From the IMG/VR virus record IMGVR_UViG_3300032731_000244, positions 1 to 46,500 of that record: 46,500 nucleotides of DNA. One strand, written 5' to 3'. Shown one piece after another: positions 618 through 44,217 of the stretch (within the stretch, counting starts at the first letter, position 1; every line of letters begins with the position of its first letter). Origin of the DNA: a virus. The position numbers and the translations under genes are program-made. The notes under the pieces were generated by a model, which was not told the origin of the DNA, did no database searches, and saw nothing but the letters and a program-made list of their open reading frames with translations.

Positions 618-700
618 ATTTCAGCCTCCTATGAGTACATATTCTTGTGGGCGGGGCAGTTTCCTGCCGAGCAGGGTCTACACCCCGCCCCTGTATATTG

Positions 701-1591: not shown

Positions 1592-1603
1592 TATCTATTC
1601 CTC

Positions 1604-2620: not shown

Positions 2621-2634
2621 ATTCTTTGCTCCTT

Positions 2635-2663
2635 TTGACAAAACAGACGAACTATGCTAGAAT
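2635..2663 (+). promoter_or_regulatory. Sigma70-like promoter for the opposite-strand HNH gene
   Basis: TTGACA at 2635-2640 and TAGAAT at 2658-2663 are separated by 17 bases, close to the bacterial consensus. It faces right, against the surrounding late genes, and the only plus-strand gene it can serve is the HNH gene at 2764. A 12-base palindrome GGGGCGCGCCCC lies in the leader at 2714-2725. Confidence 0.7.
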
Positions 2664-2763
2664 AGAACCGGGCTTGGGTGATATGATCAATCATCGACAA
2701 GCGTTCTATCCGAGGGGCGCGCCCCCTTGTGTTTGCTCGGTACATACTGTCGGAGGTATGACA

Positions 2764-3588: not shown

Positions 3589-3982
3589 CTAGCTCGGGTC
3601 TTTTGTCCTCGGGCACCCACATGTCGAGTGCTTTGTCATGCGCCTTCGCAGGCCCACTCTCAAAGTTCTCTACTTTCTGCAACAGCGCGATACGCGCTGC
3701 CTGCCCTGGGTCTGCAAACCCAACGTACGGCCCGACCGGATCGACGAGGCGATATACTGCCCCGTCTTTGCCCGTGCGCGTGTCAAAGCCAACTTCGTCT
3801 GGCACGTCTGGATCAACGCGCACCAAGCCCAGGAATGCAAGATGGTCTTCGCTTCCAGGCTCCATATAGTCGGGCCGTAGCGTTGGGTCATCGCTAACCT
3901 CTGACTGCACGGGCGCACCCATGTTGCGCAGAAGTTCCTCAAGATCGTTTACCCGCTTTTCAAGCTCTTTGTTAGTAGGCAT
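3566..3982 (-). CDS. Small protein with N-terminal coiled coil, downstream of major capsid gene
   Basis: 138 residues, preceded by AAAGGGGGAA. Residues 4-20 (NKELEKRVNDLEELLRN) form heptads. The rest is acidic and includes YRLVDPVGPYVGFADPGQA and MWVPEDKRPELARQM. I do not recognise a family. Its position 36 bases after the major capsid gene suggests a virion or head-completion role. The last 23 bases overlap the end of the convergent HNH gene. Confidence 0.7.
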   Translation of the reverse strand: MPTNKELEKRVNDLEELLRNMGAPVQSEVSDDPTLRPDYMEPGSEDHLAFLGLVRVDPDVPDEVGFDTRTGKDGAVYRLVDPVGPYVGFADPGQAARIALLQKVENFESGPAKAHDKALDMWVPEDKRPELARQMRGR

Positions 3983-4018
3983 TTGTTTCCCCCTTTATTC
4001 GATTGTCCTCGGCTTCAC

Positions 4019-5143
4019 TTAGGCCGCGGTTCCAGTTGAGTAGTACGCACCCTTGCGGTCGAACAAGTTACCGTTCGTCGCATCAATGTACGTACCCCAG
4101 ATGTCCATCGCCTTGACGACGACGTTTCCAGTCTCGAAGTCACCCATGATTGGGTTGACGGCTGCGCCAGCGCCCAGCATCGATGAAATTGACTCAATGT
4201 CAGACTTTCGCCGCAGAACGCGCGGTGCGGGCCATCCCTGCATCCTGGCGAGCACCATTGCGATTAGACCAGTGCGCCATTCGGCAAACGCCCACCACGG
4301 GATATTCGGTGCTGTGTAAGCCACGTACGGGTCTTCGATGCCGATCCAGTTGGTTCGTACAACGTTCACGGCGTTGGTCGCATTCTCGGGCACAAGCTGG
4401 CTGCCGTGGATAGTGCGAACCACGTCCTCGAGCCCACTCGGATAGACGATGTACGCCAGCCGCGCGTTGATGGGTTCACCCGCGGCGTCCGTGCGTGCAT
4501 TGTACGCCATCCGTGCTTCACTGATGTGCGTAGTCGTCAAGCGCCCGTTCTGCGAGTACATCACACCACCATTTGTCAGCCGCAGGATAGATGTAACGTT
4601 GTTGTACAGGCGGCTGACGTACTTCTCAAGCGTGCGCCGTGCAGAATATCCCATCTCCTGAGCGGTTTCCCTGAAGTAATCCAGGTAGTCGTTCACGAGC
4701 ATCTGCCACGAGAAGTCGAACTGCTTCTGCCACACAAACACCTGCAACGTTCGTGAGACAGCGTCCGGGAACTCGCCAGCGCGGGCCGGAGCCTTGCTAG
4801 GCGTGTACTCTAGATCGTTCAAGCCCTGACGGCGCTGGAGCTTCGTAACTTCCTGGAAGTTCGGCAGCACCGCTGGTTTGACAAGAGGCTCAAACGCAAA
4901 GTTCTTCTTCTCATACGCTTCCCATACCTCGACGTCAACGAAGGTGCCCAGCGCGTTCGCGAAGTCGCCCGTAGTCATCGCCTCGCTCATCAGCCCGGTT
5001 GATCCGGCTGGCCCTGCGCCGCCCATCGTGTTGTCCAGGTAATTGAAGTAGTCGTCACACTCCTGAATGCGCTTGTCAGGAGCCCCAAGCTTAGACAGCT
5101 CTTCTTTTCTCAGGTCGTTGAACACACGTAGAATGCTTCTCAT
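4019..5143 (-). CDS. Major capsid protein (HK97-fold type)
   Basis: 374 residues; start preceded by AGGAGG. It has the features of a phage major head subunit: a helical N-terminus, a central segment with LEYTPSKAPARAGEFPDAVS and VWQKQFDFSWQMLVND, and a C-terminal half with ARLAYIVYPSGLEDVV, APNIPWWAFAEW and MGDFETGNVVVKAMDIWG. The order protease, small decoration-like protein, then this gene is the classic head-assembly order. I saw no separate scaffold gene; the acidic parts of the protease may serve that role. Assignment rests on sequence character plus position. Confidence 0.82.
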   Translation of the reverse strand: MRSILRVFNDLRKEELSKLGAPDKRIQECDDYFNYLDNTMGGAGPAGSTGLMSEAMTTGDFANALGTFVDVEVWEAYEKKNFAFEPLVKPAVLPNFQEVTKLQRRQGLNDLEYTPSKAPARAGEFPDAVSRTLQVFVWQKQFDFSWQMLVNDYLDYFRETAQEMGYSARRTLEKYVSRLYNNVTSILRLTNGGVMYSQNGRLTTTHISEARMAYNARTDAAGEPINARLAYIVYPSGLEDVVRTIHGSQLVPENATNAVNVVRTNWIGIEDPYVAYTAPNIPWWAFAEWRTGLIAMVLARMQGWPAPRVLRRKSDIESISSMLGAGAAVNPIMGDFETGNVVVKAMDIWGTYIDATNGNLFDRKGAYYSTGTAA

Positions 5144-5176
5144 GTTTATCCTCCTACTATTCGATTGCCGTCACCA

Positions 5177-5791
5177 CTACGGGGTCAGGTCGCGTGCGCC
5201 ATTGATCAGCAGAATGCAGACGGCATATTCGTAGACCGTTTCCGCCCACGATAGCGGCCACGACTGCGCCGTATTCGCACCACCCACGCTCACGTCCACA
5301 TACTCGTCCTGGTCGTACCACAGTACGCCAGCCATCGGGTTCTTCAAGGTGCCAGTGCTGTTGAACTGCGATAGCGAGAGCGTGCAGCCCGCGCCAAGCG
5401 CAGCGCTGTCATCGACGTAGACCGGCTGCCCGATAACAGGCGCGGACTCGAATGTGTCCGCCTCAGCCTGCGCATACCCCGTGATGTTAGACACGTAGTT
5501 CTTGACGATCTGGCCGTCAGCGATGTCCACCACCACGAAGTCGAAAGGCTCGGTGAGTCCTTCCTTCACCGTCAGAACGACGCCCGTCACGTTCAGCGGA
5601 CGCCCGTCATCCGCCGTGCGCCCACCGATGGCAATCACCGGGTGCAGTCCATTCTCAAGCTCATCCTTGTTCGCGCCAATGGCATTGTCGTGAACGGGCC
5701 AGCAGTCGGACTCGTGAACCACCACTGGGGTGTGCGGCTCTGAACTCGTTTCGTACGATGCCCCACTGTAAAACGTTGCCTGTGTCGTCAT
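5177..5791 (-). CDS. Probable capsid decoration protein
   Basis: 204 residues, with AGGAGG upstream. The protein is beta-rich and has a VIGQPVYVDDSAAL..GCTLSLS..NSTGTLKNPMAGVLWYD segment, resembling the small beta-barrel head-decoration proteins (DUF2190-like) that lie between protease and major capsid genes. The C-terminus is hydrophobic (YEYAVCILLINGA). The function is inferred from that segment and its place in the head operon. Confidence 0.55.
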   Translation of the reverse strand: MTTQATFYSGASYETSSEPHTPVVVHESDCWPVHDNAIGANKDELENGLHPVIAIGGRTADDGRPLNVTGVVLTVKEGLTEPFDFVVVDIADGQIVKNYVSNITGYAQAEADTFESAPVIGQPVYVDDSAALGAGCTLSLSQFNSTGTLKNPMAGVLWYDQDEYVDVSVGGANTAQSWPLSWAETVYEYAVCILLINGARDLTP

Positions 5792-5807
5792 TTCTTACCT
5801 CCTCTTA

Positions 5808-7469
5808 CTAATCGAATATGCCAACGTTGGGCAGAACCACGTCGTGATAGTGCTTCCGCATAGCCAGTCGTCGTTCCTTCGGCGACTGAGCAGCCTCAGC
5901 AACACTCGCGCTCCGCGTTGTTGGTCCTTGACCGAACGGCCTGCCTGAGCCAGTCGCAGCCTTGAAGTCATCCGTTGCCTTGGTGATTGCCCCTGCAAGC
6001 TCGTCTGCATCCGCATACTCGCGCACCTTGAGTGCGATCTTGAATGCTTCCGGCAAGCGCGTCTTGTCAACCTCTTCAGCGACAACGGCTTCTGCGATCA
6101 TCATCTCTTGGACTTCGCCTTCGGTCTCTACCACATCCTCTGGTGAAGGATCAGCCTCTTCGATCTCGGCAACCTGTTCCTCCACTGGCACTTCCTCGAC
6201 CACGTCTTCGACCGATCCTTCGGTCATATTACTCCCTCCATCTTCATTTTCGACGATCTCAAGCGCGCGCCCACCAGCGCCCGCCTTCGTCACCCAGTCA
6301 ATGCTCTCAACAGAGCTGATATTCTCGACGATGAATGCCTGCTTGCCATTGACCTTGCCCTTGCGCATATCGCCTTCGCCAAGTATCGAACACTCAAGCG
6401 AGCCAAGTGCATCAAGCGCTGCGCGGTTGCGCACGTTCCTGGCAAACGTTTCATCAAACACGCCAACAAGCGCGATTGGCCCACCACGCTCGGTGAAGCC
6501 AACGGGACAATCAAGCACCATGCTAACTTCGTTGCCGACTGACTTGTCTTTGCCACGATGGTTGACTGGATACATCTTCGCACCCTTGAACATATGCGCG
6601 TTCTCGCGCAGCATCGGTGCGCCGTAGTAGCGGCCCATCTTGGCGTTGCCCATTCCCGGACGGATGACTTCAATATGCAACTTCATCGGGGCAGCGCGTG
6701 TGCCCTCTCCATCTTCGACGATGGCAAGCACTTTCCCATCGCTGCTCTCTTCAAACTCAGCGCGCTCTGCGTCGCCTTCGTCAAACTCAATCAGCGGCTC
6801 TTCGACGACTGGCACGTCGTTGTCCGTTTCGACGACATCTTCCTTAACGTCTGTGGAAGGTTCTTGCTCTTCTGCGGACTCGGCAACATCATCAAGCCCA
6901 CACAAGACCTGATCAATCAGCTTAGAGGCTTCGACAAGCAATTTCGCTTGCCGTGCAGCATCAGTTGGGAAAAGCTCATCTTTCTTGGCTTCGACGACCT
7001 CTTCTTCCTCTCTCTCGGCAGCCTTGCCAACGCGGTAGAACTCAACGATGTCACTCAATGAAACACGCTCTCCATCAACCTCGACGTCGGCAATGGACAC
7101 GATAGGCGCTTGAGTTGTAGTCTCGCCAAGCTCGTTCCACTTCGAGTGCAGCAAGTCTAGCGTCTTTGCAGCTTCGTCATTCGCAATCTCGTCTGTCTCG
7201 CGTGCTACCGCCAAGCCAACTTCGATTGCCGTCTGCGCGACGCTTGCCATTGTCCATTCGCTGCCGTTGTCCATTTCGTTCTCCTGCACTTGTTTGGCGA
7301 TCACGCCATTAGCCTGCGTGACGGCCTTGGCGTCACATTTCTTCTCGCTGCCACCGTCCTTGATACATGCTGCCCTGACCGAGTTCGCAACGGCTGCCCA
7401 TTGCTTCTTGAGCTTGGCAGTCGTCGCTTTCGATTGAAACCTAACTGCGTCTTTCGCCGTCCAGGGCAT
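5808..7469 (-). CDS. Capsid maturation protease, probably fused to scaffold-like acidic regions
   Basis: 553 residues. Residues 1-60 begin MPWTAKDAVRF and include KKQWAAVANSVRAACIKDGG, a module often found at the start of phage protease or head proteins. Residues about 263-405 form the protease-like core, with HIEVIRPG, MYPVNHRGKD (His304), LGSLECSILGEG and SSVESIDWVTKAGAGG, matching the His/Ser layout of Mu I-like prohead proteases. Very acidic stretches (about 150-260 and 405-460) and a helical C-terminus could scaffold capsid assembly and be cut away. Catalytic residues were guessed by motif only. Confidence 0.75.
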   Translation of the reverse strand: MPWTAKDAVRFQSKATTAKLKKQWAAVANSVRAACIKDGGSEKKCDAKAVTQANGVIAKQVQENEMDNGSEWTMASVAQTAIEVGLAVARETDEIANDEAAKTLDLLHSKWNELGETTTQAPIVSIADVEVDGERVSLSDIVEFYRVGKAAEREEEEVVEAKKDELFPTDAARQAKLLVEASKLIDQVLCGLDDVAESAEEQEPSTDVKEDVVETDNDVPVVEEPLIEFDEGDAERAEFEESSDGKVLAIVEDGEGTRAAPMKLHIEVIRPGMGNAKMGRYYGAPMLRENAHMFKGAKMYPVNHRGKDKSVGNEVSMVLDCPVGFTERGGPIALVGVFDETFARNVRNRAALDALGSLECSILGEGDMRKGKVNGKQAFIVENISSVESIDWVTKAGAGGRALEIVENEDGGSNMTEGSVEDVVEEVPVEEQVAEIEEADPSPEDVVETEGEVQEMMIAEAVVAEEVDKTRLPEAFKIALKVREYADADELAGAITKATDDFKAATGSGRPFGQGPTTRSASVAEAAQSPKERRLAMRKHYHDVVLPNVGIFD

Positions 7470-7483
7470 CTCTATGTCCGATC

Positions 7484-7861
7484 CTATATCACCGTAACGG
7501 TCGGCTGTCTGCCATCAAGGTAATGTTTCACTGTGCGTCGACTGAGCACCGTCGTCAGGTCCGCGTCCACGTCGATAGTTTCTATCGTGTCGATCTCGCC
7601 AGTCGGGTAGTAGACATAGTTCGTGCGCCTGCCGCTTACAATGGCTCCCAGCGTGTCTCGGAACACCTCATCACATCGCGCAATCTGTCCGTCCACACCA
7701 TAGGTGATGTCAGGTCGGTCAGCGATGTTTGTCACGTCCAGCAGCAATTCGATGATCCGCCGCTTGGTGTGAATAGCGAGCCAGTTGTCGATGGCGACGA
7801 TGATCTGCGCCTTTGTGGCTGCTCGAAGCTGTGATAGCGTCAAGTTCGACCAGTTCGGCAT
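7484..7861 (-). CDS. Small head/connector-region protein of unknown function
   Basis: 125 residues. The start overlaps the stop of the upstream HNH gene by one base (TGATG), and its ribosome-binding site GGAGGCGT lies inside the end of that HNH gene. It contains helical LSQLRAATKAQIIVAIDNWL and a beta region with TNYVYYPTGEIDTIETIDVD. I do not recognise a family. Its place between the DUF1566 protein and the protease suggests a structural role. Confidence 0.7.
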   Translation of the reverse strand: MPNWSNLTLSQLRAATKAQIIVAIDNWLAIHTKRRIIELLLDVTNIADRPDITYGVDGQIARCDEVFRDTLGAIVSGRRTNYVYYPTGEIDTIETIDVDADLTTVLSRRTVKHYLDGRQPTVTVI

Positions 7862-8346
7862 CAGACGCCTCCAATTGTGTTGAGGCAGGCGAATTCGCCA
7901 TAGTATTTCAATGCAGCCTCATTGTATGCTTGAGCCGCACTCCGTTTGGATTCAAACAAGCCTAAGTATTTGTTTCTGCCATTCAGCCCAATCCAAGCTA
8001 TCCATTTACCACGTAGCTTATGCCAGGAGACCCCTTTGTATCCAGACGTATTAGTAACAGGCCGTCTGCGATTGCGCGTGTTTTCCGCAGGTGTGCATAA
8101 ACGCATATTGGCACGAGTGCAATTCAACCCATCGCCGTCTCGATGGTCTACCTGCAATCCATCCATAGGCTCCAATAGAAAGGCATGTAAGAATAATTGG
8201 TGCCGCTTGCTGCCCATATTTATCAGTCGGCTGGGATACCATGTGCGTTTCCGTTTCACGGCATGCCATTTATACTGGGACGCACGAGCATAGTCTGCAT
8301 CATCAACCAATGCAACTTTACCCTTAGTCAGACTGATTGTTCTCAC
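7861..8346 (-). CDS. HNH homing endonuclease with AP2-type DNA-binding domain
   Basis: 161 residues, GTG start overlapping the previous stop by one base. The middle contains LHAFLLEP, LQVDHRDGDGLNCTRANMR and ENTRNRR, the HNH_3 signature. The C-terminal 55 residues (SGYKGVSWHK...KWIAWIGLNGRNKYLGLF.S...AAQAYNEAAL) are an AP2/ERF-like domain common in phage homing nucleases. It has been inserted exactly between two structural genes. Both its upstream and downstream junctions carry the same GGAGGCGT ribosome-binding sequence, so expression of the downstream gene is kept. Confidence 0.9.
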   Translation of the reverse strand: MRTISLTKGKVALVDDADYARASQYKWHAVKRKRTWYPSRLINMGSKRHQLFLHAFLLEPMDGLQVDHRDGDGLNCTRANMRLCTPAENTRNRRRPVTNTSGYKGVSWHKLRGKWIAWIGLNGRNKYLGLFESKRSAAQAYNEAALKYYGEFACLNTIGGV

Positions 8347-9161
8347 TAAACGCCTCCTCGGACTATGGCGCCGAAGTAGGTTATCGTTTTGATATTGCCG
8401 TCAAGGCGACCTCTAGCAAAGTCTGCACGGACCGCAATAGTATTATTGTCTGCCGCCGTAGTAGATGTCCAGACATAATTTGCTGGCCAACTCGGAAACG
8501 CCACAGCATCTGGCACAGCAGTAGCAGCTTCAAGATTAAACAAACTGCCTAGCTCAAACATATTCGGCACTCTCCAATCCGCATACCCGCCCAGGCTCAC
8601 CGTGTTCGCCGCCGCGCAGTATTGGAAGATGTCGTAAAGCTGTCCAGTCCACGGCATCGTGCCAGTCCCTGCCGTGCCCATCGTCGCGTACTGTGCGCTC
8701 GTGTACCGTGACCACATCAGTCCCGTCTGCCGATCCAGCACGCAGTTGTTGCTGTGCGCTTCCCGCTTGGCTATAGACACGCTGGGGCCAGCGGCCCCGA
8801 GAATAGTTGCCTCAGTTGTGCGGATAGTTCCAGCAACGGCACCGGTGCTCACATTGTAAACCCCATCGTTGCCAACTGAACCCGATACGACGATGACTTC
8901 TCCCGTCTTGAACATCGCCAACTGGTTGTTAGTATCCGTGATCGTCCCTGGCGTAGTGGCTGCAAACGCGATGCTGATGTCAGTTAGGTGGACTAGGTCG
9001 ATATTGGACGTGCCAGAGTATGCGCCAACTGTGAGAACGGTATATGTCTTCGTCAGCCCTCTCTCATAGAACCCGTCATCCAACTCACCATTGTACTGGG
9101 TGGTTTGGCCAGTAACCAACAATCTTGCCCGCTTGCCGCCGAAGATACCTGTTAGGCCCAT
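8346..9161 (-). CDS. DUF1566 (C-type-lectin-like) virion protein
   Basis: 271 residues from the ATG at 9161; a GTG at 9203 would give 14 more residues but overlaps the upstream gene by 38 bases. The C-terminal half is a DUF1566/Lcl-type domain: NNCVLDRQTGLMWSR, MPWTGQLYDIFQYC, GGYADWRVPNMFELGSL, YVWTSTTAADN and a glycine-ended finish. The N-terminal half is beta-rich. Such domains have a C-type-lectin-like fold and are usually surface-exposed binding modules. In this late cluster it is probably a head or tail appendage. Confidence 0.75.
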   Translation of the reverse strand: MGLTGIFGGKRARLLVTGQTTQYNGELDDGFYERGLTKTYTVLTVGAYSGTSNIDLVHLTDISIAFAATTPGTITDTNNQLAMFKTGEVIVVSGSVGNDGVYNVSTGAVAGTIRTTEATILGAAGPSVSIAKREAHSNNCVLDRQTGLMWSRYTSAQYATMGTAGTGTMPWTGQLYDIFQYCAAANTVSLGGYADWRVPNMFELGSLFNLEAATAVPDAVAFPSWPANYVWTSTTAADNNTIAVRADFARGRLDGNIKTITYFGAIVRGGV

Positions 9162-9165
9162 ATCA

Positions 9166-9699
9166 TTAGCCCTGCGTCCAGGCGTGAACGTTGACGATTC
9201 CACTCACGCCAGCGCCACCGGCAGCTAGCGTGACAATCATCGCCGTAGCAGCCGTGCCCGCGAGGCCGGGTTCCCACTTGATGAAACCAGGGCCGCTTTC
9301 TGGAATATCTATCTTGAGGACGGTTGTGCCTCCACCATCTTCGATAACAAGGGTGCCTGCCACTGTCAGCAAGTCGTAACTCCACACCACCATGCCCAGA
9401 ACATTTGATACCCCAGCAGCACCAGCAGCAAGCGTCACAACCGCTGCCGTGTTTGCCGCCGGTTCGTCAGAATAAGCAGCGGCAGCTGCAACACCCGCTG
9501 GCGGGATATTGGTGATAACGATGATTTTCAGCCTGCCGAACTCGTCAGCAGAGAGGCGCGTGTGGCTGAGGTCGGCAGTTGCCAGTTGCGCGTCGGCGTC
9601 GTTGCGAAACCCTAGAATAGATACGCCGCTGTCACCATCGACGCCAACTGTATCTTCGTATTGTACACTGCCGCCTTGATGCGTTGTTCTCATTGCCAT
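9166..9699 (-). CDS. Structural protein with an internal duplicated beta segment
   Basis: 177 residues, with AAGGAG nine bases before the start. Two similar segments, TAAVVTLAAGAAGVSNVLGM (about residue 85) and a second copy with MIVTLAAGGAGVSGIVNVHA at the C-terminus, suggest an internal repeat. The protein is alanine-, glycine- and valine-rich with few charges, as in virion beta-proteins. No family recognised. It lies between two other small late proteins. Confidence 0.65.
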   Translation of the reverse strand: MAMRTTHQGGSVQYEDTVGVDGDSGVSILGFRNDADAQLATADLSHTRLSADEFGRLKIIVITNIPPAGVAAAAAYSDEPAANTAAVVTLAAGAAGVSNVLGMVVWSYDLLTVAGTLVIEDGGGTTVLKIDIPESGPGFIKWEPGLAGTAATAMIVTLAAGGAGVSGIVNVHAWTQG

Positions 9700-9715
9700 T
9701 TAGGTATGCTCCTTG

Positions 9716-10204
9716 TTACACCAAGACAGCCGTGATCTGCAAGACCCCTGGATTTGCTTGATCGCCGTCTGCGCTCTCTCTGGCAGGGATGCGCACTCTC
9801 TCTACAACCTTGTTTAGCACAACAGTGAACACATGGTCCTCGGCTCCAGCGCCGGTCGCGCCGTATGTGATGTATTCGCGTTGCGTGCGGCTCTGACTGT
9901 CTGCGGCGAGCGCAACTGGCCCAGGCGCGTATAAGCTCATCGTCACCCACTCAGATGCACCAGTGGGTACAAGCGCGACTACCGAGTAGTGACTGACTTC
10001 AAGCTGCCAGTCGAATGCGCCAACCGCACCCTGTTCAGCATCCTGGGTATACGTGAAGTGGATCGACATCTCAAGCGCGTTGGTCGAGAATGACTCGGTC
10101 GGCGCTGCATCCCACGCGCCAGCAGCTTCCAACGCTGCGCTCGCTCGCAAGACAACTGGGTTGGCATATCCTCGTGGATGCGGATCGCCTATGGGCATTA
10201 CCAT
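9716..10204 (-). CDS. Putative virion protein, first gene after the non-coding control region
   Basis: 162 residues; AGGGAG lies eight bases before the ATG at 10204. Beta-rich sequence, for example FDWQLEVSHYSVVALVPTGA and HVFTVVLNKVVERVRIP, with no known motif. It is the first structural gene downstream of the control region, directly next to phased ATTGC repeats, so it may be the first gene of the second late transcript. Confidence 0.68.
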   Translation of the reverse strand: MVMPIGDPHPRGYANPVVLRASAALEAAGAWDAAPTESFSTNALEMSIHFTYTQDAEQGAVGAFDWQLEVSHYSVVALVPTGASEWVTMSLYAPGPVALAADSQSRTQREYITYGATGAGAEDHVFTVVLNKVVERVRIPARESADGDQANPGVLQITAVLV

Positions 10205-10218
10205 TGATCAAGCTCCCT

Positions 10219-10298
10219 ATTGCTTCTGAATTGCATCTTGATTGCTTCCAATTGCTTCGTATTTACGCCTGCAATTGCGTCTAACCGCGTTCTATTGC
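10219..10298. repeat. Helically phased ATTGC repeats
   Basis: ATTGC occurs at 10219, 10230, 10241, 10251, 10274 and 10294, with spacings of 11, 11, 10, 23 and 20 bases, all near whole turns of the helix. The first four share the pattern (G)AAGCAAT on the minus strand. They lie immediately upstream of the gene starting at 10204. Repeats on one face of DNA suggest protein binding or intrinsic bending; the period is not a multiple of three, so coding is not the explanation. Confidence 0.6.
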
Positions 10299-10313
10299 AT
10301 GATACCCGCATGC

Positions 10314-10370
10314 GCAATAGACAGCCGCTACAGGCTGATTCATTCTTTGAAACCCTGTGCTGTCTATTGC
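10314..10370. repeat. Perfect 12-base inverted repeat
   Basis: GCAATAGACAGC at 10314-10325 and its exact reverse complement at 10359-10370, with a further nested ACAGG/CCTGT pair (10330-10334 and 10354-10358). It could form a cruciform or an RNA hairpin in the leader of the late gene at 10204. There is no U-run, so it is not an obvious terminator. Its arms contain the same GCAAT unit as the neighbouring phased repeats. Confidence 0.6.
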
Positions 10371-10444
10371 ACGTGACTGTTCTTTCCACTGAAACAGAAA
10401 GCTACTATCGGTCAGGCCGAACGCCATGCAGCCCCAAGGCGGAC

Positions 10445-10490
10445 AAACAAAAAGCGCCGCAGGCACGATTGCTCATGCTACTGCGGCGCT
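10445..10490 (-). terminator. Intrinsic terminator, minus strand
   Basis: AGCGCCGCAG at 10453-10462 pairs perfectly with CTGCGGCGCT at 10481-10490 (10 base pairs, GC-rich). On the minus strand it is followed by TTTTGTTTG. It lies about 40 bases downstream of the minus-strand promoter's start and upstream of the structural genes. Confidence 0.75.
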
Positions 10491-10525
10491 CCACTTCTGC
10501 GTGGTATACCGAATTATTCGATTGT
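10445..10525 (-). ncRNA. Predicted short minus-strand RNA bounded by promoter and terminator
   Basis: A near-consensus minus-strand promoter at 10532-10560 predicts a start near 10525. A strong intrinsic terminator ends the transcript near 10445, giving about 80 bases with no convincing open reading frame. It could be a stand-alone small RNA, or an attenuated leader that is read through into the structural genes below 10204 when an antiterminator is present. The two options cannot be separated from sequence. Confidence 0.5.
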
Positions 10526-10531
10526 GCTGTT

Positions 10532-10560
10532 ACTATACCACACTACTTACAGATTGTCAA
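10532..10560 (-). promoter_or_regulatory. Sigma70-like promoter, minus strand
   Basis: Read on the minus strand, TTGACA (10560-10555) and TATAGT (10537-10532) are 17 bases apart, with a TGTGG just before the -10 box. That extended form is shared with the other strong promoters of this phage. It lies back-to-back with the plus-strand promoter at 10569-10597; the two -35 boxes are eight bases apart. Confidence 0.7.
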
Positions 10561-10568
10561 GTGCCCCC

Positions 10569-10597
10569 TTGGCAGATCATCCGCAATGTGCTATACT
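10569..10597 (+). promoter_or_regulatory. Sigma70-like promoter, plus strand
   Basis: TTGGCA at 10569-10574 and TATACT at 10592-10597, 17 bases apart, with TGTGC before the -10 box (extended -10). Predicted start near 10604. The only thing downstream before a terminator is a highly foldable 150-base non-coding stretch. Confidence 0.68.
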
Positions 10598-10602
10598 GTC
10601 TA

Positions 10603-10758
10603 TGCGGGTATGGGACGCCATATCTGCTTATGAGTGCCCGCTGGGGAATGGGATGCGTAACATGCGACTCGCACTATAGGATTCCCTGGCACGGGGCGTG
10701 CCGCACCTACCAAGTGTAGGCGGCGATCTTAGACCGCTCTTCGGGGCGGTCTTTGTAT
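10603..10758 (+). ncRNA. Predicted structured small RNA, plus strand
   Basis: About 155 bases between a strong promoter and an intrinsic terminator, antisense to the general direction of the region, with no plausible gene. Consecutive hairpins can be drawn: GCGGGTA/TGCCCGC (10604-10610 with 10635-10641, starting at the predicted first base), GGGAAT/ATTCCC (10644-10649 with 10681-10686), GGCACG-GGG-CGTGCC (10688-10702), CCTAC-CAAGT-GTAGG (10706-10720), then the terminator. This hairpin density is typical of a regulatory RNA. Function and target are unknown; I do not recognise a family. Confidence 0.55.
10731..10758 (+). terminator. Intrinsic terminator, plus strand
   Basis: AGACCGC (10731-10737) pairs with GCGGTCT (10746-10752) and closes on a TCTTCGGG loop that can form a stable UUCG tetraloop. 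It is followed by TTTGTATTTG. It ends the predicted plus-strand small RNA. Confidence 0.75.
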
Positions 10759-10784
10759 TTGATAATCTGCACATAGCATGCCAG

Positions 10785-11006
10785 CTACATTGGCATGTTT
10801 AAAGTCATCGTGCTGAGATCGTCGGGCGCAAGCGTTACACGACAATCAAGCACTCGGCACAGTGGGTATCCGATCTCTTCACATACTGCTGAGATATACA
10901 ACATCCCCGCATCACAACGCGGGCGGCTGTGTGTTCTCACTATAGCAGTCTCTGATGGAGAATGAAGCACAACCCTGACTTCATATCGTGGTGTGGGGCA
11001 ATTCAT
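10785..11006 (-). CDS. Small protein of unknown function
   Basis: 73 residues; its ATG overlaps the preceding stop (ATGA), with AGGGG just upstream. The sequence MNCPTPRYEVRVVLHSPSET then CDAGMLYISAVCEEIGYPLC is cysteine-containing and beta-like. No family recognised. It is the last gene of the upstream late segment. A 7-base-pair hairpin (10777-10783 with 10791-10797) spans its stop codon. Confidence 0.6.
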   Translation of the reverse strand: MNCPTPRYEVRVVLHSPSETAIVRTHSRPRCDAGMLYISAVCEEIGYPLCRVLDCRVTLAPDDLSTMTLNMPM

Positions 11007-11209
11007 CTTCCCCTATTCTGCTTTCTTTCTCTGGCTATTACGTCTTCCAGCCTACAAGAATCAACAGATGCTTGTTTCAAGTCTTGCCATTCGGCGTCAG
11101 TGAAGTAGGAAGGTGGCTTTCCTGTGCGATAAACAAAGTCTTTACACTCCATTTTCCCAACATGCATCATATACTTTTGCAACAGTAGACGATAATCAGT
11201 ATCAGTCAT
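11003..11209 (-). CDS. Small helical protein of unknown function
   Basis: 68 residues, preceded by AAAGGGGGAACA, the ribosome-binding motif typical of this phage. Charged and helical (YRLLLQKYMMHVGKMECKDF, WQDLKQASVDSCRLEDV). Four-base overlap with the next gene indicates translational coupling. Function unknown. Confidence 0.65.
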   Translation of the reverse strand: MTDTDYRLLLQKYMMHVGKMECKDFVYRTGKPPSYFTDAEWQDLKQASVDSCRLEDVIARERKQNRGR

Positions 11210-11219
11210 TGTTCCCCCT

Positions 11220-11438
11220 TTATTTCCCCCTCTTCATCTGTCGCCACTCGGCTCTGATCTCAGCCGTTGTCGGGCTAATGCCTCTCAAAATCTCGGCAGC
11301 GTCTGCAATCTGCAACGCGCCAGAGCGGATGCGGTCAATCTGCTGAACGACGATTATCGCGCTGATGCCCCCGCCGTTGCCGTTCTCTGCGACGATGCCT
11401 TCGATGATGAGCGCGTAGTTGCCGTTGGGTTCGGTCAT
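11220..11438 (-). CDS. Small protein of unknown function
   Basis: 72 residues starting three bases after the previous stop. Composition: a glycine/asparagine patch (AENGNGGGISAIIVVQQI) followed by a helix (SPTTAEIRAEWRQMKRGK). Not recognised. Tight spacing on both sides puts it in the late operon between the minor head protein and the control region. Confidence 0.6.
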   Translation of the reverse strand: MTEPNGNYALIIEGIVAENGNGGGISAIIVVQQIDRIRSGALQIADAAEILRGISPTTAEIRAEWRQMKRGK

Positions 11439-11441
11439 ACT

Positions 11442-11813
11442 CTACTCAGTAGCTTCAATTTCAGCTAGCAACTCTTCTTGAAGCGCAAGAACATCTTGCC
11501 AGTCTACGACAGGCTTTCCCCTAAACGAGATAAGCCAGCCGTCATCCCAGCCTTCACTAAGATAGCCAGGCACCCACGCGGGATTGACAAAGCGTACCCA
11601 GCCATACCCTTCGTCATCAATGGCCGCTGCGCTTTCAGCCTTCACTTTTGCTAGATTGCTGAACGCAACGCGCATGTCAACCGTGTAGTCATTTCTGATA
11701 ACCGCACACTGAATGGCATCGACCTTGAAGCTCTCTTCCAGTTGTGCTAGAAGCTCGTACAACCTGAAGCACTTACGCGCTGTGCCCATAACATAGATAG
11801 CATCGATTTCCAT
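11442..11813 (-). CDS. Protein of unknown function in head operon
   Basis: 123 residues from the ATG at 11813, which follows AAAGGGGGAAACA; a longer reading from 11906 lacks such a signal and overlaps the upstream gene. Contains YVMGTARKCFRLYELLAQLE and WVPGYLSEGWDDGWLISF and an acidic C-terminus. No family recognised. Confidence 0.65.
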   Translation of the reverse strand: MEIDAIYVMGTARKCFRLYELLAQLEESFKVDAIQCAVIRNDYTVDMRVAFSNLAKVKAESAAAIDDEGYGWVRFVNPAWVPGYLSEGWDDGWLISFRGKPVVDWQDVLALQEELLAEIEATE

Positions 11814-11824
11814 TGTTTCCCCCT

Positions 11825-12418
11825 TTATGGCAAGCTCGGCAACGGTCCTGGTGAGCATCGGTCTGTAGTAACTACTAGACTGCAAAGGCAACGCCACCCT
11901 TGGCATGCGATTTTAGGATTTACCGGTGCTTGCGGGTATACGCCCACCTGCTGCCAGTACGACGCGCGTTTCACTTTACCATTCAGCTTAATGTCACACG
12001 AGATACAGCCTTCAATCGTAGGCCCGCGCACCCATTTGAGCTTCTGGTCTTGACCCGCCATCACTTTCGCCCGTGTGCTGACGTCCTGCCACCGTGCGGT
12101 CCACATCTTCACTCGGTTCAAGTGGCGAGATAGCTTCGCGCCACTAGGCTGTGAAAACTTGATGATAGAAGCTGCAAAGCCAGGAACGCGATTAGTTTCT
12201 TCAGTGATAACTGACTGTAGCGCATTGCGTTCGATGGGCGTTAGCTCACTTGGTTGTATGCCCATTTCAGCCGCGCCCGCGTACCACGCTTTTGTCAAGC
12301 CGCGCGCGATTGCAGAACTCATCCAGTCGTAGAACTGGTCAGCGTCTATCAGCCCCTTCCACAGCGCCCGTACCGCGCCGCGTATGCTCAGGCCGTAGTC
12401 GCTACTCCCCGCTGCCAT
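11825..12418 (-). CDS. Minor head protein, phage Mu F-like
   Basis: 197 residues; overlaps the end of the portal gene by 17 bases. The C-terminus has the hallmark of Mu F / SPP1 gp7-type proteins: GCISCDIKLNGKVKRASYW, then YPQAPV and IACQGWRCLCSL, a C-x2-C ... C-x4-C-x-C arrangement. These proteins bind the portal and help head assembly or DNA ejection. It is at the short end for the family, and the helical N-terminal part is compact. Confidence 0.75.
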   Translation of the reverse strand: MAAGSSDYGLSIRGAVRALWKGLIDADQFYDWMSSAIARGLTKAWYAGAAEMGIQPSELTPIERNALQSVITEETNRVPGFAASIIKFSQPSGAKLSRHLNRVKMWTARWQDVSTRAKVMAGQDQKLKWVRGPTIEGCISCDIKLNGKVKRASYWQQVGVYPQAPVNPKIACQGWRCLCSLVVTTDRCSPGPLPSLP

Positions 12419-14207
12419 TGCTGATGGCGTCGGCTACCATCTCCCTCACGATTGCTGTAATTCCTGATGTGTCGATGTCATGGACATTGTCCCCAAGATA
12501 TGTCGATGGAATCGTTCCCACATCGACACTTTTCTCTTCTGCTGGCCGTGGTACTACTGGTGGCGCTGCTACTGCATAGTCACCGAACTCGAACGACTCG
12601 GAAGACGTGATGGCATCTGCATTCGTCACGCCCGCTGACTGCAAGATGATGTGCCAGAACGCAGCGACGATCTTCTTCGCTGCTTCAACGGGCACGATGC
12701 CCGGCTCAATCAGTGGCCCAAGCGCGTTGCTCATCAGGTTGCCTACGCTCGTAGCGATCTGCGGCAAGTCATTCAGTGAAAGCGTGTCTGTACTGACCTG
12801 GACGGTGTAAGGGTCAACGGGATCGTCTGGATTATACTTCTCGTACATGCCGATGACAACGCGCACCATCTTCGTAAACTGCGCTGACCAGTACGTCTTG
12901 TACGTCTCGAACAACATCGACTGCGCCTTGTCCATCTCAAGCGCCGTCGCCCATCGTGTCGTATCCAGCCCCGCACTGGTGGGAAACAAGCCCGCTCCCA
13001 GCAACGCCGTCCACGCAAATAGCTCGTTGTCTGCCTTCGCGTCAGATGCGCCCGTTGTCATCGGCAAATCAACTGTGCGCACGGCCTCGTTATCAACCTC
13101 TACGCTGCCCGAGTACGGAGGCGCGTTTGTGTCACGGCTTTGAGTGCGCGACAATGCACTTTGTAGTTGAGCAGAGACAGCGTTGACGGCACGCGAGCCG
13201 CCAGCCACTTGCTTGCGGCGCACAAACATACTCTTTGCCTTTGCCACCGTCAGGCGGCTCTCGGTGAAGCCCTTGTGCGCACTCATAAACGCACGCGAGC
13301 ACGTCAGCAACGGCCATCCCCACAAGCTGTCACGCTCCTTGCGATTGTGGGCGATGTGTAGCACCGTGACGTCTGTGCCACCGCGCTGGGTTTCCATGCG
13401 TATTGCATTATCGGGCAGCTTGGCAACTGCGCCCATATCTACCGCTGGCTTGCTATTGCTACTACTACTACCATTGTCCCCGATAGCCGCGCTACTGCCG
13501 CTAGCAGTGGTAGCATCATCGTCTAGCTTGTTATCCAGATACCACAGCCAGTCGGTGTAGTACATCTCTTTTTGCGCATCAGGGCTAGTGCGCATGTAGA
13601 ACAAGGGCACTGACCAGTCATCGGGGTCCGTGACGATCTTCGTGATCTCGCGCGTCGGCAACTCACGCACGGTACATTTCCCATCTGGCGTGCTGGCGTA
13701 GAAGGCCAGAAACGTGTTCCCGTCACGTAGCAGGAAGTTGCTCAGGTCATGAATGATGTCCTCACCGATGACGGGCCTGTTGCGGTCAGCGTGCCAGAAC
13801 TCGTCCCATATCTCCTGCACCTTGTCATTGTCGCGAATGAGCACGGTGATCTCGTCCCCCAAGCCCCAGCCCGTCCACAGCCACAGCGAGAACTGCGCCA
13901 GCGGGCTGTACTTGAACAGACGGGCACTGTCGTTGATCGCACGCTCCCGTTCGGCTGACGTGTCACTAGCGTAGGTGCCCAAGCTCTCCCAGTCCATCTG
14001 GTTGAGAATGTCCTGGATCATCCACGTATCTTGCTCTTTCAGTTGCTGCACCAGTGCTTCTGGCGGCAACTGCCACGGCCCCTGCTCGTAAGCGCGTAGC
14101 AACCCCGACACTGTCTCTACGATCTTGTCGCGCTCGCCCTGCGGCTCTAGTGCGTGCGCTATAGCTGTGCGTGCCTTGTAGAAAAGCCCTTCGTTTTCTG
14201 CTGCCAT
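12402..14207 (-). CDS. Portal protein
   Basis: 601 residues; AGGAGTTGACACG precedes the ATG. The family is indicated by residues 95-175 (LFKYSPLAQFSLWLWTGWGL, DEFWHADRNRPVIGED, FLLRDGNTFLAFYA), the central HIAHNRKERDSLWGWPLL segment, and WATALEMDKAQSMLFETYKT. A low-complexity Ser/Asn/Gly linker spans residues 229-258. Portals form the dodecameric DNA entry ring. It follows the terminase and precedes the Mu F-like protein, the normal order. Length is normal to slightly long. Confidence 0.85.
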   Translation of the reverse strand: MAAENEGLFYKARTAIAHALEPQGERDKIVETVSGLLRAYEQGPWQLPPEALVQQLKEQDTWMIQDILNQMDWESLGTYASDTSAERERAINDSARLFKYSPLAQFSLWLWTGWGLGDEITVLIRDNDKVQEIWDEFWHADRNRPVIGEDIIHDLSNFLLRDGNTFLAFYASTPDGKCTVRELPTREITKIVTDPDDWSVPLFYMRTSPDAQKEMYYTDWLWYLDNKLDDDATTASGSSAAIGDNGSSSSNSKPAVDMGAVAKLPDNAIRMETQRGGTDVTVLHIAHNRKERDSLWGWPLLTCSRAFMSAHKGFTESRLTVAKAKSMFVRRKQVAGGSRAVNAVSAQLQSALSRTQSRDTNAPPYSGSVEVDNEAVRTVDLPMTTGASDAKADNELFAWTALLGAGLFPTSAGLDTTRWATALEMDKAQSMLFETYKTYWSAQFTKMVRVVIGMYEKYNPDDPVDPYTVQVSTDTLSLNDLPQIATSVGNLMSNALGPLIEPGIVPVEAAKKIVAAFWHIILQSAGVTNADAITSSESFEFGDYAVAAPPVVPRPAEEKSVDVGTIPSTYLGDNVHDIDTSGITAIVREMVADAISNGSGE

Positions 14208-14246
14208 CGTGTCAACTCCTATTCATTGTCCTGTTCCCCCTCAAAC

Positions 14247-14711
14247 TTATACCGCTTCTATAGCCAAGTCCGACACAACATAGATCATATCATGCGTGAG
14301 AGCTGCATCATTCTTGTGAACAGCCCAAAGACCGTCTTGGTACAGCGCAATACCATCGCCAGGCTGCAACTCGAAACGGCATTTGTCCCGCCATCCAAAG
14401 CCTTCTCTATGGGCAATGATACAAACCACAGGGTTGCTCTCATTGTCTACAACGACGACCCAGTCTCTTAGCTCAATAGCCATTTCTGCCTTCCACCCGA
14501 CAGGAATGTCTCTGAGCGGAATCGAGTAGCAGTCGTCTAAGTAACATCCATCGACACGTATCTCTTCCTCTGCCGATAGCACGAACTCCCCTTTGTGGAT
14601 TGGCACCAGCGTGCCACTCTCGATGTACCCGCCTGTGGCACTCAGCTTCAGCCTAGCTGCTAACACGGCAATCGTAGCTGCAATAGATGTCAGAAAACTA
14701 CGCCTGTTCAT
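14247..14711 (-). CDS. Protein with twin-arginine-like signal, function unknown
   Basis: 154 residues from the ATG at 14711, directly after GGGGGGACAAGGA. It begins MNRRSFLTSIAATIAVLAA, a short n-region with RRSFL and a hydrophobic core. This resembles a Tat signal peptide, although the family's usual S/T before RR and K after are replaced. The remainder is a beta-rich domain with acidic patches (FVLSAEEEIRVDG, DWVVVVDNESNPVVCIIAH). An exported or membrane-anchored phage protein is possible; the role is not recognised. Confidence 0.6.
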   Translation of the reverse strand: MNRRSFLTSIAATIAVLAARLKLSATGGYIESGTLVPIHKGEFVLSAEEEIRVDGCYLDDCYSIPLRDIPVGWKAEMAIELRDWVVVVDNESNPVVCIIAHREGFGWRDKCRFELQPGDGIALYQDGLWAVHKNDAALTHDMIYVVSDLAIEAV

Positions 14712-14790
14712 TCCTTGTCCCCCCATGTTTGATAATCCAGCCCATTGTAATTGAAGTCCCAATCTGTCTCGTATGACCTTACCCACGCAT

Positions 14791-15075
14791 CTATAGTATA
14801 GCCTGGAAAATAGACACCCACTCGGGCACGATGTCTCTGATAATAACGTCGCCACGCTCTCTGCGAACCGCGTTACGAATTTCCTCTCTCAATTCGGCAA
14901 CATCAATGCCACAAGGAATACAGGACGTGTTGTAAGTGTGCAGTTTTTCCCTCATTGTCTGCGGCTCGTCTAGCTTCTCGCTGATCTCTTTAAGCGTCGT
15001 GTCGATACTATCCAGCGTCTTGTTCATCTCTGTTAGAGCACTGACAACCTCGCCCATCCAGTAGTCGTCGTTCAC
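14791..15075 (-). CDS. Small coiled-coil protein of unknown function
   Basis: 94 residues from a GTG at 15075, five bases after AAAGGGGG; an earlier ATG frame to 15132 lacks a signal. Residues 10-40 are heptad-like (VVSALTEMNKTLDSIDTTLK). Contains SCIPCGIDVAELREEIRN. Two further coiled-coil genes follow upstream, forming a small group between terminase and portal. Confidence 0.62.
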   Translation of the reverse strand: MNDDYWMGEVVSALTEMNKTLDSIDTTLKEISEKLDEPQTMREKLHTYNTSCIPCGIDVAELREEIRNAVRRERGDVIIRDIVPEWVSIFQAIL

Positions 15076-15145
15076 CGTTTCCCCCTTTTTGTGCATTTCA
15101 TAATGCTGTTTCACGTCACTTTCTCCCCACACATTGGGCGCGAGC

Positions 15146-15185
15146 CGTAGCGGTTACGTAACACCGCAACTCTGTAACCGCTACG
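15146..15185. repeat. Perfect 12-base-pair intercistronic hairpin
   Basis: CGTAGCGGTTAC (15146-15157) is the exact reverse complement of 15174-15185, with a 16-base loop. No U-run follows on either strand, so it is not an ordinary terminator. It lies in a 150-base gap between two late genes and could stabilise or punctuate the mRNA. Confidence 0.6.
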
Positions 15186-15228
15186 CTCCCCCTAAAGCCG
15201 ACTGCTGCTGCGCGCCCGTCGATTTTGT

Positions 15229-15534
15229 TCATTCTGAAATGATATTTTGCCGACCATGCGCGGGGCAGTACCAGCCAACCGATGAGCCAACTGCACGCGC
15301 GAGATTCCTATTCCATTCGCAATCGCACTTGGGCGTAGTTGCGCCGTCCGTTGCGCTCACATCCCACGGCCAGCCATCTTCTGCGTGGCCCCAGCCGTCG
15401 TCCAGCGGCGGCAAAGACTTGATTGCTGGCGTTGCCTTCTCGACTACCTCTTTGAGACGGTCAAACGCGGCGCACAACTCGGCTACTTCCTGTTTCAGCT
15501 TGACAACTTCAGCGGCGAGCGCTTGGTCTGTCAT
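15229..15534 (-). CDS. Coiled-coil protein with Cys/His patch, unknown function
   Basis: 101 residues; ATGA overlap with the preceding gene and AGGAG upstream. Residues 1-35 form a coiled coil (AAEVVKLKQEVAELCAAF, DRLKEVVEK). The C-terminus has CDCEW and WYCPAHGR, which could bind zinc. The N-terminal heptads resemble those of the plus-strand protein at 26525 (IAQLKQEVAELRAE), so the two may share an oligomerisation module. Confidence 0.65.
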   Translation of the reverse strand: MTDQALAAEVVKLKQEVAELCAAFDRLKEVVEKATPAIKSLPPLDDGWGHAEDGWPWDVSATDGATTPKCDCEWNRNLARAVGSSVGWYCPAHGRQNIISE

Positions 15535-15842
15535 TGTACAACAACTCCTAGCATTTCCTCAAGGCGCTCAATGCGCGAGGTCAAGTTGCCGTGCATGATG
15601 AAAAGAACTCTATCAAGATGCTCAGTCTTAGCACGCAACTCAACTATAGAGACATTCTCGAGGTGATCGAGGCGAGTCGAAAGATGCTCGATGGCTTTCT
15701 GCAAGTCGGCAATCTTCATTCGCGCTGTCTTGTCTACTACACGCGGCGGCTCGCTGGGTGCTTGCAAGATTTCTACCTGCTCGCGTAGCCACTCACGCTT
15801 CTCAGCGACCTTCATCTCCTGCCACTTCTCTTCTGTGATCAC
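15531..15842 (-). CDS. Coiled-coil protein of unknown function
   Basis: 103 residues from a GTG at 15842 that follows AAGGGGGAACC. Almost entirely helical, with long heptads (KIADLQKAIEHLSTRLDHLE, VELRAKTEHLDRV). Not recognised. Coupled to the next gene by a 4-base overlap. Confidence 0.62.
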   Translation of the reverse strand: MITEEKWQEMKVAEKREWLREQVEILQAPSEPPRVVDKTARMKIADLQKAIEHLSTRLDHLENVSIVELRAKTEHLDRVLFIMHGNLTSRIERLEEMLGVVVQ

Positions 15843-15879
15843 GGTTCCCCCTTGTGAGTACATTCTGTGAGTACACATC

Positions 15880-17319
15880 TTAGAACGCTGGTCCGATGGA
15901 CTGCCAGGGCATCGTGATAACCTCTTCCGTTGTCATCATTGTACCACTTAAGGCATTGTACGCACCCGTAGACGCATCCATAATGTCATCGTGGCTCCAA
16001 TCGGGCTGGTGGTGCATATGCGTCAGCCACTCGTCGTTCCAATCCCCTCTGAGCAAGCGAATGTCACCTCTCTGCGAAGCAGCAGCTAGCGGCTTCGCCC
16101 GGACGACCTTATCGCCTTGTGGCCGTATGCCGCCGCAATCAAACGCACGCAGCATATCTCTCAGGCGATGGTCGTCGCGTAAGCCAGAAGAGCCACCTTC
16201 GATCTCCCAGCGCACCGCGTAGTGCGTGGTCGACTCTTTCGCATTCTCGTAGTCGGCAAGGGCCGTACGGAACATCAACAAATCAACTTCCGCTGGCCCC
16301 ATCTGTACTTTGATCATGTCTGTGATGAAGTACGCATCGCGCACGCGTCTGATCTTGATACCTACCGTATAATCGGCCCCCTTCTTGACAGACGCAGCCA
16401 AGTCCCAAAAGCGACATTCGATGCCCAGCGGGGGCACTTTGTCGATAGAGGGAATAAACCAAGCACGGTTGAACAGATTGCCCGCAGCCGGTCGTATCTT
16501 CCAGTTGCCGTGCAGCAGGCGCTCACGCTCGATCTCTGGCAGCAACCAGAGATTTGCTAGATAAGTGGGGTTCTTCTCCATCAGTATCTGGTTGTCACGA
16601 ATGTTACTAGGAATGAACGTGAATGACTTGTAGATATAGCGGGGGTCAACGCCCGTGCGCTCAAAGTAATCAGAATGTTGCTCGACAAGCTCTTGTGGCG
16701 TATCTGCCCATATAAGCTGCTCGCCCAGGCGTATGAAATAGCGCAAGATGCCACTACGGTCTTTGATTGGGTATCCGTCTTCGTCAAGCCACCAGTCAAT
16801 CATCTCTGCCAGAAAGCAGTCAGGATCGGGGTTGCACGTCATACGCACGTAAGGGCGAATGCCGGACATCGACCGATTGCGCTGCAACAGATACCAGAAT
16901 GCTTCGCTGGAGAATTGCTCCGCTTGATCGAAGCATAGCAAGCCGATCTGAGCACCTTGGTAAAGCATTCTGTCTTGCTCGTGCTGCAAGTGACGAAAGC
17001 GAATAGACGCGCCACCAGGGAACTCCCAGCGCAAGTCGGCCACTTTCGGCACAGCGCCCAGTTGTGGATAGATGTGCATCGTTTCGCTCCACATCCCGCC
17101 CGCTTCGGTAATCTGCTTGTACGTGCGCCTGAACGTCACGGCATTGAAAAGATTGGAAATGCTCTTGCCAGATTTGTCTTTCATCGGTCGAACGTGTCTC
17201 AGCGGCTCACAGATCAGCCAAAAAGTTTTCCCCCCGCCACTAGCTCCGCCAAACAACGCTATATCCGCGCTCGTTGTCGCGAACTGTGTCTGCGGGCCAG
17301 GCTGCGGGGCGATTTTCAT
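15880..17319 (-). CDS. terL: Terminase large subunit (DNA packaging motor and nuclease)
   Basis: 479 residues; the ATG overlaps the previous stop. Walker A is GGASGGGKT (24-32). The Walker B-like segment is LLCFDQAEQF (127-136), with Q where many relatives have the catalytic E directly after D, and an E two residues on. Coupling region: MTCNPDP (159-165). Nuclease domain: FWDLAAS...GADYTVG (305-320, acidic residues D306 and D316) and HDDIMDAS (443-450). It packages DNA into the prohead with the small subunit and portal. Residues about 258-348 are repeated, roughly 90% identical at DNA level, in the gene at 17653-18162. Confidence 0.92.
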   Translation of the reverse strand: MKIAPQPGPQTQFATTSADIALFGGASGGGKTFWLICEPLRHVRPMKDKSGKSISNLFNAVTFRRTYKQITEAGGMWSETMHIYPQLGAVPKVADLRWEFPGGASIRFRHLQHEQDRMLYQGAQIGLLCFDQAEQFSSEAFWYLLQRNRSMSGIRPYVRMTCNPDPDCFLAEMIDWWLDEDGYPIKDRSGILRYFIRLGEQLIWADTPQELVEQHSDYFERTGVDPRYIYKSFTFIPSNIRDNQILMEKNPTYLANLWLLPEIERERLLHGNWKIRPAAGNLFNRAWFIPSIDKVPPLGIECRFWDLAASVKKGADYTVGIKIRRVRDAYFITDMIKVQMGPAEVDLLMFRTALADYENAKESTTHYAVRWEIEGGSSGLRDDHRLRDMLRAFDCGGIRPQGDKVVRAKPLAAASQRGDIRLLRGDWNDEWLTHMHHQPDWSHDDIMDASTGAYNALSGTMMTTEEVITMPWQSIGPAF

Positions 17320-17540
17320 ACTAATGGATGCTCATTGAGTGGTGGCTGCATATCGTCATCTACGGCATCTTGGATGATTTTGATTGCATCGTCGATTGCA
17401 GAGATAAGATCGTCATCGTCACAGACAAAGTCTCTATAGGCGGCGGCTGCACACACGATTGTCTCTAGTGCGGCGCGCGGCACCCACACCTCAAGCACAG
17501 GACGCGTCAGAAGCACATCGTCACTGTGGGCGATTTTCAT
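17316..17540 (-). CDS. Small acidic protein upstream of large terminase
   Basis: 74 residues, with 4-base overlaps at both ends. Begins MKIAHSDDV; terminase also begins MKIA, probably by chance or shared start context. The C-terminal half is acidic (DDDDLISAIDDAIKIIQDAVDDD). Unknown function; translational coupling to terL suggests co-expression. Confidence 0.6.
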   Translation of the reverse strand: MKIAHSDDVLLTRPVLEVWVPRAALETIVCAAAAYRDFVCDDDDLISAIDDAIKIIQDAVDDDMQPPLNEHPLV

Positions 17541-17653
17541 AGACGCTTCTTCTTTGCTTCTTCGGCCTTGCGATCTATAAACTCCATCATCGCGTGCTGG
17601 CGCAGAAACAGGGCTAGTTTAGGCTTGATGCGGCTGATAGTCAACGCACGCAT
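17537..17653 (-). CDS. 38-residue basic protein, possible remnant of a longer gene
   Basis: ATG at 17653 overlaps the stop of the upstream fused gene (TGATG), and its own stop overlaps the next start. Sequence begins MRALTISRIKPKLALFLRQH and ends in EEAKKKRL. In the same frame the open region extends upstream as ERTYTDPSVGSWSRL before hitting a stop at the edge of the terminase duplication. This looks like the original C-terminus of a longer protein broken by that duplication. Confidence 0.5.
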   Translation of the reverse strand: MRALTISRIKPKLALFLRQHAMMEFIDRKAEEAKKKRL

Positions 17654-44216: not shown

Positions 44217-44217
44217 G

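Follow-up and report, generated by a model that had tools for sequence, protein, structure and literature searches.

A putative terminated leader with an accessory divergent short RNA ahead of the capsid gene block in a group of uncultured phages

In a 46,500-nt stretch of viral DNA (a single IMG/VR virus record of 46.5 kb, IMGVR_UViG_3300032731_000244; the whole stretch is called the window below), two promoters lie back to back inside the structural gene cluster, each followed by an intrinsic terminator. We give about even chances to the reading in which the unit transcribed in the direction of the late genes is a terminated leader that opens a second late operon, comprising the genes up to and including that for the capsid. 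Judged from the sequences of the window and its relatives, a conserved terminated late leader accompanied by an accessory divergent short RNA appears more probable than the pair of divergent small RNAs proposed in a first-pass annotation of this DNA.

Results

Two divergent promoters, each followed by a terminator

The late genes of the window lie on the minus strand, and the cassette occupies the gap between a minor head gene and the gene at 9716-10204. Its elements are as follows.

10532-10560, minus strand: sense (late-direction) promoter TTGACA-17-TATAGT, 11/12, with extended -10 TG; predicted start near 10525.
10513-10526, minus strand: two -10-like hexamers at the very start of the transcribed sequence, CACAAT (10526-10521) and AATAAT (10518-10513); candidate site of sigma-dependent pausing.
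10442-10525, minus strand: predicted short sense leader RNA of ~80 nt, ending at its terminator.
10450-10493, minus strand: intrinsic terminator of the sense leader, hairpin 10493-10450 (-29.9 kcal/mol), then TGTTTGTC, with a U-rich tail to 10442.
10561-10568, no strand: 8-bp gap between the two -35 hexamers, GTGCCCCC.
10569-10597, plus strand: divergent promoter TTGGCA-17-TATACT, 10/12, with extended -10 TG; predicted start near 10604.
10604-10758, plus strand: predicted divergent short RNA of ~155 nt, antisense in direction to the late genes, with a 5' hairpin, two internal stems and a terminator.
10731-10758, plus strand: intrinsic terminator of the divergent unit, hairpin 10731-10752 (about -14.5 kcal/mol), then TTGTATTT.

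The promoters, the strong terminator behind each and the lack of a plausible gene inside either unit are thus as the first-pass annotation had described them. The minus and plus promoters rank third and fourth among the 19 promoter-like sites listed for positions 1-20000, and a back-to-back pair of this quality (-35 hexamers no more than 30 bp apart, each promoter at least 10/12) is present a single time in the window, against none in 100 dinucleotide shuffles. CACAAT sits 11 bp below the -10 of the minus promoter, which is the spacing of a pause-inducing -10-like sequence in Escherichia coli (PMC7876045), and pausing would be expected at this element of the sense leader.

Both units are predicted to be strongly folded, the plus unit (155 nt) at -69.0 kcal/mol (z -3.3) and the minus unit (81 nt) at -37.1 kcal/mol (z -5.5), in each case better than 200 of 200 shuffles; deprived of its terminator, the plus unit retains moderate structure only (z -2.2). 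The hairpin that had been noted at its 5' end is present, and there are four main stems in all, counting this hairpin and the terminator, fewer than the five claimed.

The layout of the sense unit recurs at the same slot in about twenty relatives

A DNA search of cultured phages with the window returned no relative, and relatives were therefore sought by protein, with the product of the gene at 9716-10204, the capsid and the portal as queries. Among cultured phages, no protein relative of the first of these was found; the relatives found are uncultured phages whose core proteins are ~40-60% identical to those of the window. In ~20 of them the layout of the minus unit recurs at one slot, with the portal and minor-head genes on one side and the block that leads to the capsid gene on the other. 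Read in the late direction, it has a near-consensus sigma70 promoter, usually with an extended -10, then a leader (~22 to 150 nt ahead of the terminator hairpin) and a strong terminator; a start codon follows, usually 12-45 nt further on. The marker of the slot is the first gene behind the leader.

9716-10204, minus strand: gene for a 162-aa protein of the structural cluster, without a match in PHROG, Pfam or NCBIfam.

A strict scan finds the layout in 14 of 23 slots (the window and loci L007, L008, L013, L014, L019, L022, L024, L028, L031, L044, L047, L050 and L057) versus one of 186 starts of other homologous genes, and this lone hit, L029, is the same slot in a phage that lacks the 162-aa gene. 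Over 463 kb, 20 of 24 promoter-terminator pairs fall in the slot. Two extra cases (L060 and L062) come from the portal search, and three with weaker promoters (L017, L018 and L021) were spotted by eye. In 13 of the 14 strict-rule cases, 12-45 nt separate the end of the terminator from the predicted start codon, and since the terminator abuts the gene start in the relatives, no promoter fits between them. Strong sense promoters are also nearly absent from the genes that follow: from slot to capsid, at 21 mapped loci, no site scores above 10 and five score exactly 10, versus 10.5-12.5 for the strict-rule slot promoters. Unless there is an unrecognised promoter, polymerase must therefore pass the terminator to reach the capsid gene.

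A -10-like hexamer lies exactly 11 bp below the -10 in five of 20 units, the window included, where 0.6 are expected (P ~0.0002; the spacing was taken from the literature, but the test was formalised after the sequences had been inspected). This enrichment is suggestive of a pause element.

It is the layout that is conserved and not the RNA sequence: in blastn neither unit of the window matches the relatives, and the leaders differ too much from phage to phage to be aligned. L008 and L013, both from one sample, share an identical ~46-nt terminator region and approach (L008:9932-9977), with leaders and proteins otherwise diverged; the motif GCGYAGAA, which is confined to the leaders of L007, L008, L013 and L014 (three of the four come from the same sample), is not claimed as conserved. 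A packaging RNA like that of phi29 was rejected on the ground that length and sequence vary freely among the relatives. In one relative, a tRNA-like gene with a four-base anticodon call (L019:5624-5697) stands directly ahead of the slot promoter.

Proposed working of the leader, and points against it

Taking transcription, pausing, readthrough and the existence and identity of an antiterminator as what we infer from this layout, host RNA polymerase would start at the near-consensus sigma70 promoter of the minus unit, would probably pause at the -10-like element just behind it, and would end transcription at the strong intrinsic terminator after ~80 nt, such that the structural genes behind the leader would be expressed only when polymerase gets past that terminator. 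Most likely, a phage factor loaded near the promoter would let polymerase read through the terminator late in infection, in the manner of Q at lambda pR'. On the other side, a second short transcription unit would start from the same promoter region in the divergent direction and run to its own terminator; it is probably co-regulated with the sense promoter, its RNA being either a by-product or a separate regulator.

Several results weigh against such a leader. In the window itself, 246 nt separate the sense terminator from the gene start, as opposed to the usual 12-45 nt, so the leader reading leans mostly on the relatives. The intervening sequence is peculiar to the window.

10205-10440, minus strand: extra untranslated stretch with ATTGC repeats and a 17-bp inverted repeat (10309-10325 / 10359-10375).

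The ATTGC repeats (10205-10390, plus strand) are spaced ~11 bp, the inverted repeat is built on CTGTCTATTGC, and the stretch 10205-10390 has no match in the relatives. Among the relatives, the slot has a terminator without a near promoter in L009, L010 and L041, a weak hairpin only in L049, and neither promoter nor terminator in L015. Nor did a candidate for the proposed factor emerge: neither a Q homologue nor another antiterminator was found among the window's open reading frames that were scanned with PHROGs (part of the frames, in a record that may be incomplete), and the gene families common to all 12 genomes compared, mostly whole records, belong to the structural cluster only. The stretch ahead of the hairpin is as short as 22-38 nt in some sense leaders, too little for an RNA element like put of phage HK022, and the short units that two of the phages carry away from the slot (below) are not clearly leaders.

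The divergent unit and scattered short units

A divergent promoter with its own terminator is found in four of 18 slots (the window, L014, L028 and L031, with 8, 21, 6 and 7 bp, respectively, between the -35 hexamers) and in none of the 14 others. The four divergent RNAs are 66-156 nt long and mutually unlike in sequence and length. The plus unit is thus best described, from comparison of these loci, as a probable discrete short transcription unit with a counterpart in three other phages and without sequence conservation, and it appears to be a module separate from the sense leader.

Across the 12 genomes, 22 short promoter-terminator units are found, versus 0-4 in shuffled genomes. Two genomes, G007 (the phage of L028) and G008 (the phage of L031), hold 11 such units in all, the slot included, versus 0-1 per shuffle. 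Strong promoters followed after 25-36 nt by a terminator are scattered over both genomes (L085-L088 in G007, L089-L092 in G008), share the initial motifs ACTATAG and CAACTTA, and in one instance have terminators that look alike (G007:33464 and G008:51671). For this sub-group, the divergent unit may be one member of a set of short transcripts scattered over the genome.

In the window, GCGGGTAT, with which the plus RNA is predicted to begin (10604-10616), recurs on the minus strand at 10297-10309, 300 bp off, preceded at both places by CTGTCTAT; a shared operator is possible.

Alternative explanations

The alternative that survives best, which we regard as possible but on the unlikely side, is that both units are free-standing trans-acting small RNAs acting on phage or host mRNAs, with the late genes read by leakage or from elsewhere. 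Both units are complete from promoter to terminator and strongly folded, in the window the minus terminator and the gene are 246 nt apart, G007 and G008, both among the four phages with a divergent pair, have several short units away from the slot, and three G008 units, the divergent slot unit among them, carry CAACTTA directly behind the promoter. However, the RNA sequence at the slot is unconserved while position, direction and terminator-to-gene spacing are kept, searches of both units against Rfam at gathering and relaxed thresholds gave nothing credible, and the plus and minus RNAs of the window show no excess of complementarity (~1.5 standard deviations in L028 and L031, which we do not claim). 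With neither an Rfam nor a blastn match, a conserved trans-acting phage small RNA was set aside as a classification. The pair of small RNAs proposed at first therefore stands in part: there are two short divergent units that recur in relatives, but the minus unit has the architecture of a leader, and its reading as a small RNA is weakened because ~20 relatives keep slot, orientation and a terminator usually 12-45 nt before a structural gene. That the plus unit gives a stable regulatory RNA is unproven, because its sequence is not conserved.

Somewhat more doubtful is a terminator that works as a passive attenuator or insulator, closing the upstream late operon and passing a fixed fraction of polymerases without an antiterminator, while the divergent unit blocks read-in or is a by-product. 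The group has no antiterminator candidate in common, and in L017 and L050 the upstream operon is closed by a terminator immediately ahead of the slot promoter, which fits an operon boundary and speaks for the leader reading as well; yet an insulator would be expected before the promoter and not behind it, a strong promoter spent on a strong terminator would be an odd route to the most needed virion mRNA, and the -10-like element at pause spacing is left unexplained.

We also consider, as a rather improbable extension of the leader reading, an undescribed antitermination regulon of a large uncultured phage group, in which promoter-proximal pause elements, leader terminators and a putative antiterminator would run the capsid operon and, in some members, several other short units, and to which one sub-group would couple a divergent regulatory RNA started at the same promoter junction. 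That promoter-like and terminator-like sequences merely came together by chance in an intergenic gap is very improbable. Such motifs are individually common (15 terminator-like sites in the first 20 kb of the window, ~16 expected), but no shuffle gave a comparable divergent promoter pair, and the slot architecture recurs in ~20 diverged phages.

Other features of the window

The remaining genes by which the cassette was placed are these.

15880-17319, minus strand: terminase.
12402-14207, minus strand: portal.
11825-12418, minus strand: minor head protein, assigned by position and conservation alone, without a family match.
4019-5143, minus strand: capsid protein.

Upstream of the intact terminase gene is a partial second copy of the large terminase subunit sequence (17653-18162, minus strand). 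Inside the minus-strand late cluster, a further promoter, TTGACA-17-TAGAAT, precedes a weaker hairpin with a T-run (2635-2800, plus strand; hairpin 2710-2729, -10 kcal/mol), after which GGAGG and ATG mark the start of a plus-strand open reading frame within 2539-3588 that appears to be a Cys-rich HNH-type gene. Also on the plus strand are a DnaB-type helicase gene interrupted by an intein-like Hint/LAGLIDADG insertion (40199-42835) and a DUF5131 gene weakly similar to a radical SAM mobile pair protein (44194-45084). The window has neither a tRNA nor a tmRNA. The cassette was rejected as a replication origin, as the GC skew turns near 22 kb with the gene strand and not at the cassette. Prophages of this phage group were not found in the genome collection searched, so no host can be named.

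Discussion

By analogy, the cassette may work like the lambda pR'-6S-tR' leader, whose transcript is the 194-nt 6S RNA; for want of a Q homologue, it is not classed among such leaders. Q proteins of the lambda type load where a -10-like sequence within the first bases to be transcribed induces a sigma-dependent pause (PMC6606751), and the window has the same succession of parts as pR'-tR' of lambda and phage 21: a strong sigma70 promoter, an early -10-like element, a short leader and an intrinsic terminator, with late genes behind (PMC6606751). Unlike these, the window unit lies inside the structural cluster, ahead of the block leading to the capsid, comes with no Q homologue among the frames scanned and with no common Q-binding element seen by eye in the spacers between -35 and -10 set side by side, and belongs to a slot that in some phages also has a divergent unit. 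In Pseudomonas aeruginosa, AlpA is an antiterminator without sequence homology to lambda Q (PMC7969949, PMC9371919), so the missing homologue is no bar to the mechanism (PMC7969949). The AlpA system likewise has a promoter and then an intrinsic terminator immediately upstream of the gene; in contrast with the window unit, it controls bacterial self-lysis genes, and a divergent short RNA does not figure in its account. The first-pass statement that such a cassette is not known from described phages therefore goes too far for the layout, which is known from lambda and phage 21 and, in similar form, from AlpA; it agrees with our searches as to the location, the phage group and the divergent partner, none of which we found described.

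Antiterminator RNAs of the put type have a two-stem anatomy. In HK022, nascent putRNA itself suppresses termination (PMC9378689), and the leaders of L008 and L013 resemble it in having strong stems ahead of the terminator; put acts on early genes, unlike the slot leaders, and a cis-acting element of this type was dismissed for the window, where only ~35 nt of sense leader precede the terminator hairpin and leave no room for it. IsrK of prophage Gifsy-1 offers another likeness, in that a single promoter gives a terminated short RNA or, by readthrough, an mRNA (PMC4825925); unlike what is proposed for the window unit, short IsrK acts in trans and leads to AntQ production (PMC4825925), and no sequence relation was seen. 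The small RNA P22B of phage P22 (PMC13397905), which lies 16 bp ahead of gene 24, the homologue of N, is likewise a short RNA right upstream of a phage gene, but in the early region, and was compared by position alone.

If the leader reading is true, it would explain in a simple way the timing of capsid gene expression in an uncultured phage group, and would extend terminated-leader control beyond the lambdoid phages, to a position within the structural cluster instead of in front of it. The slots would then offer ~20 natural promoter-leader-terminator variants for seeking new antiterminators, and the divergent RNA, present in four phages, would add a new type of partner to switches of this sort.
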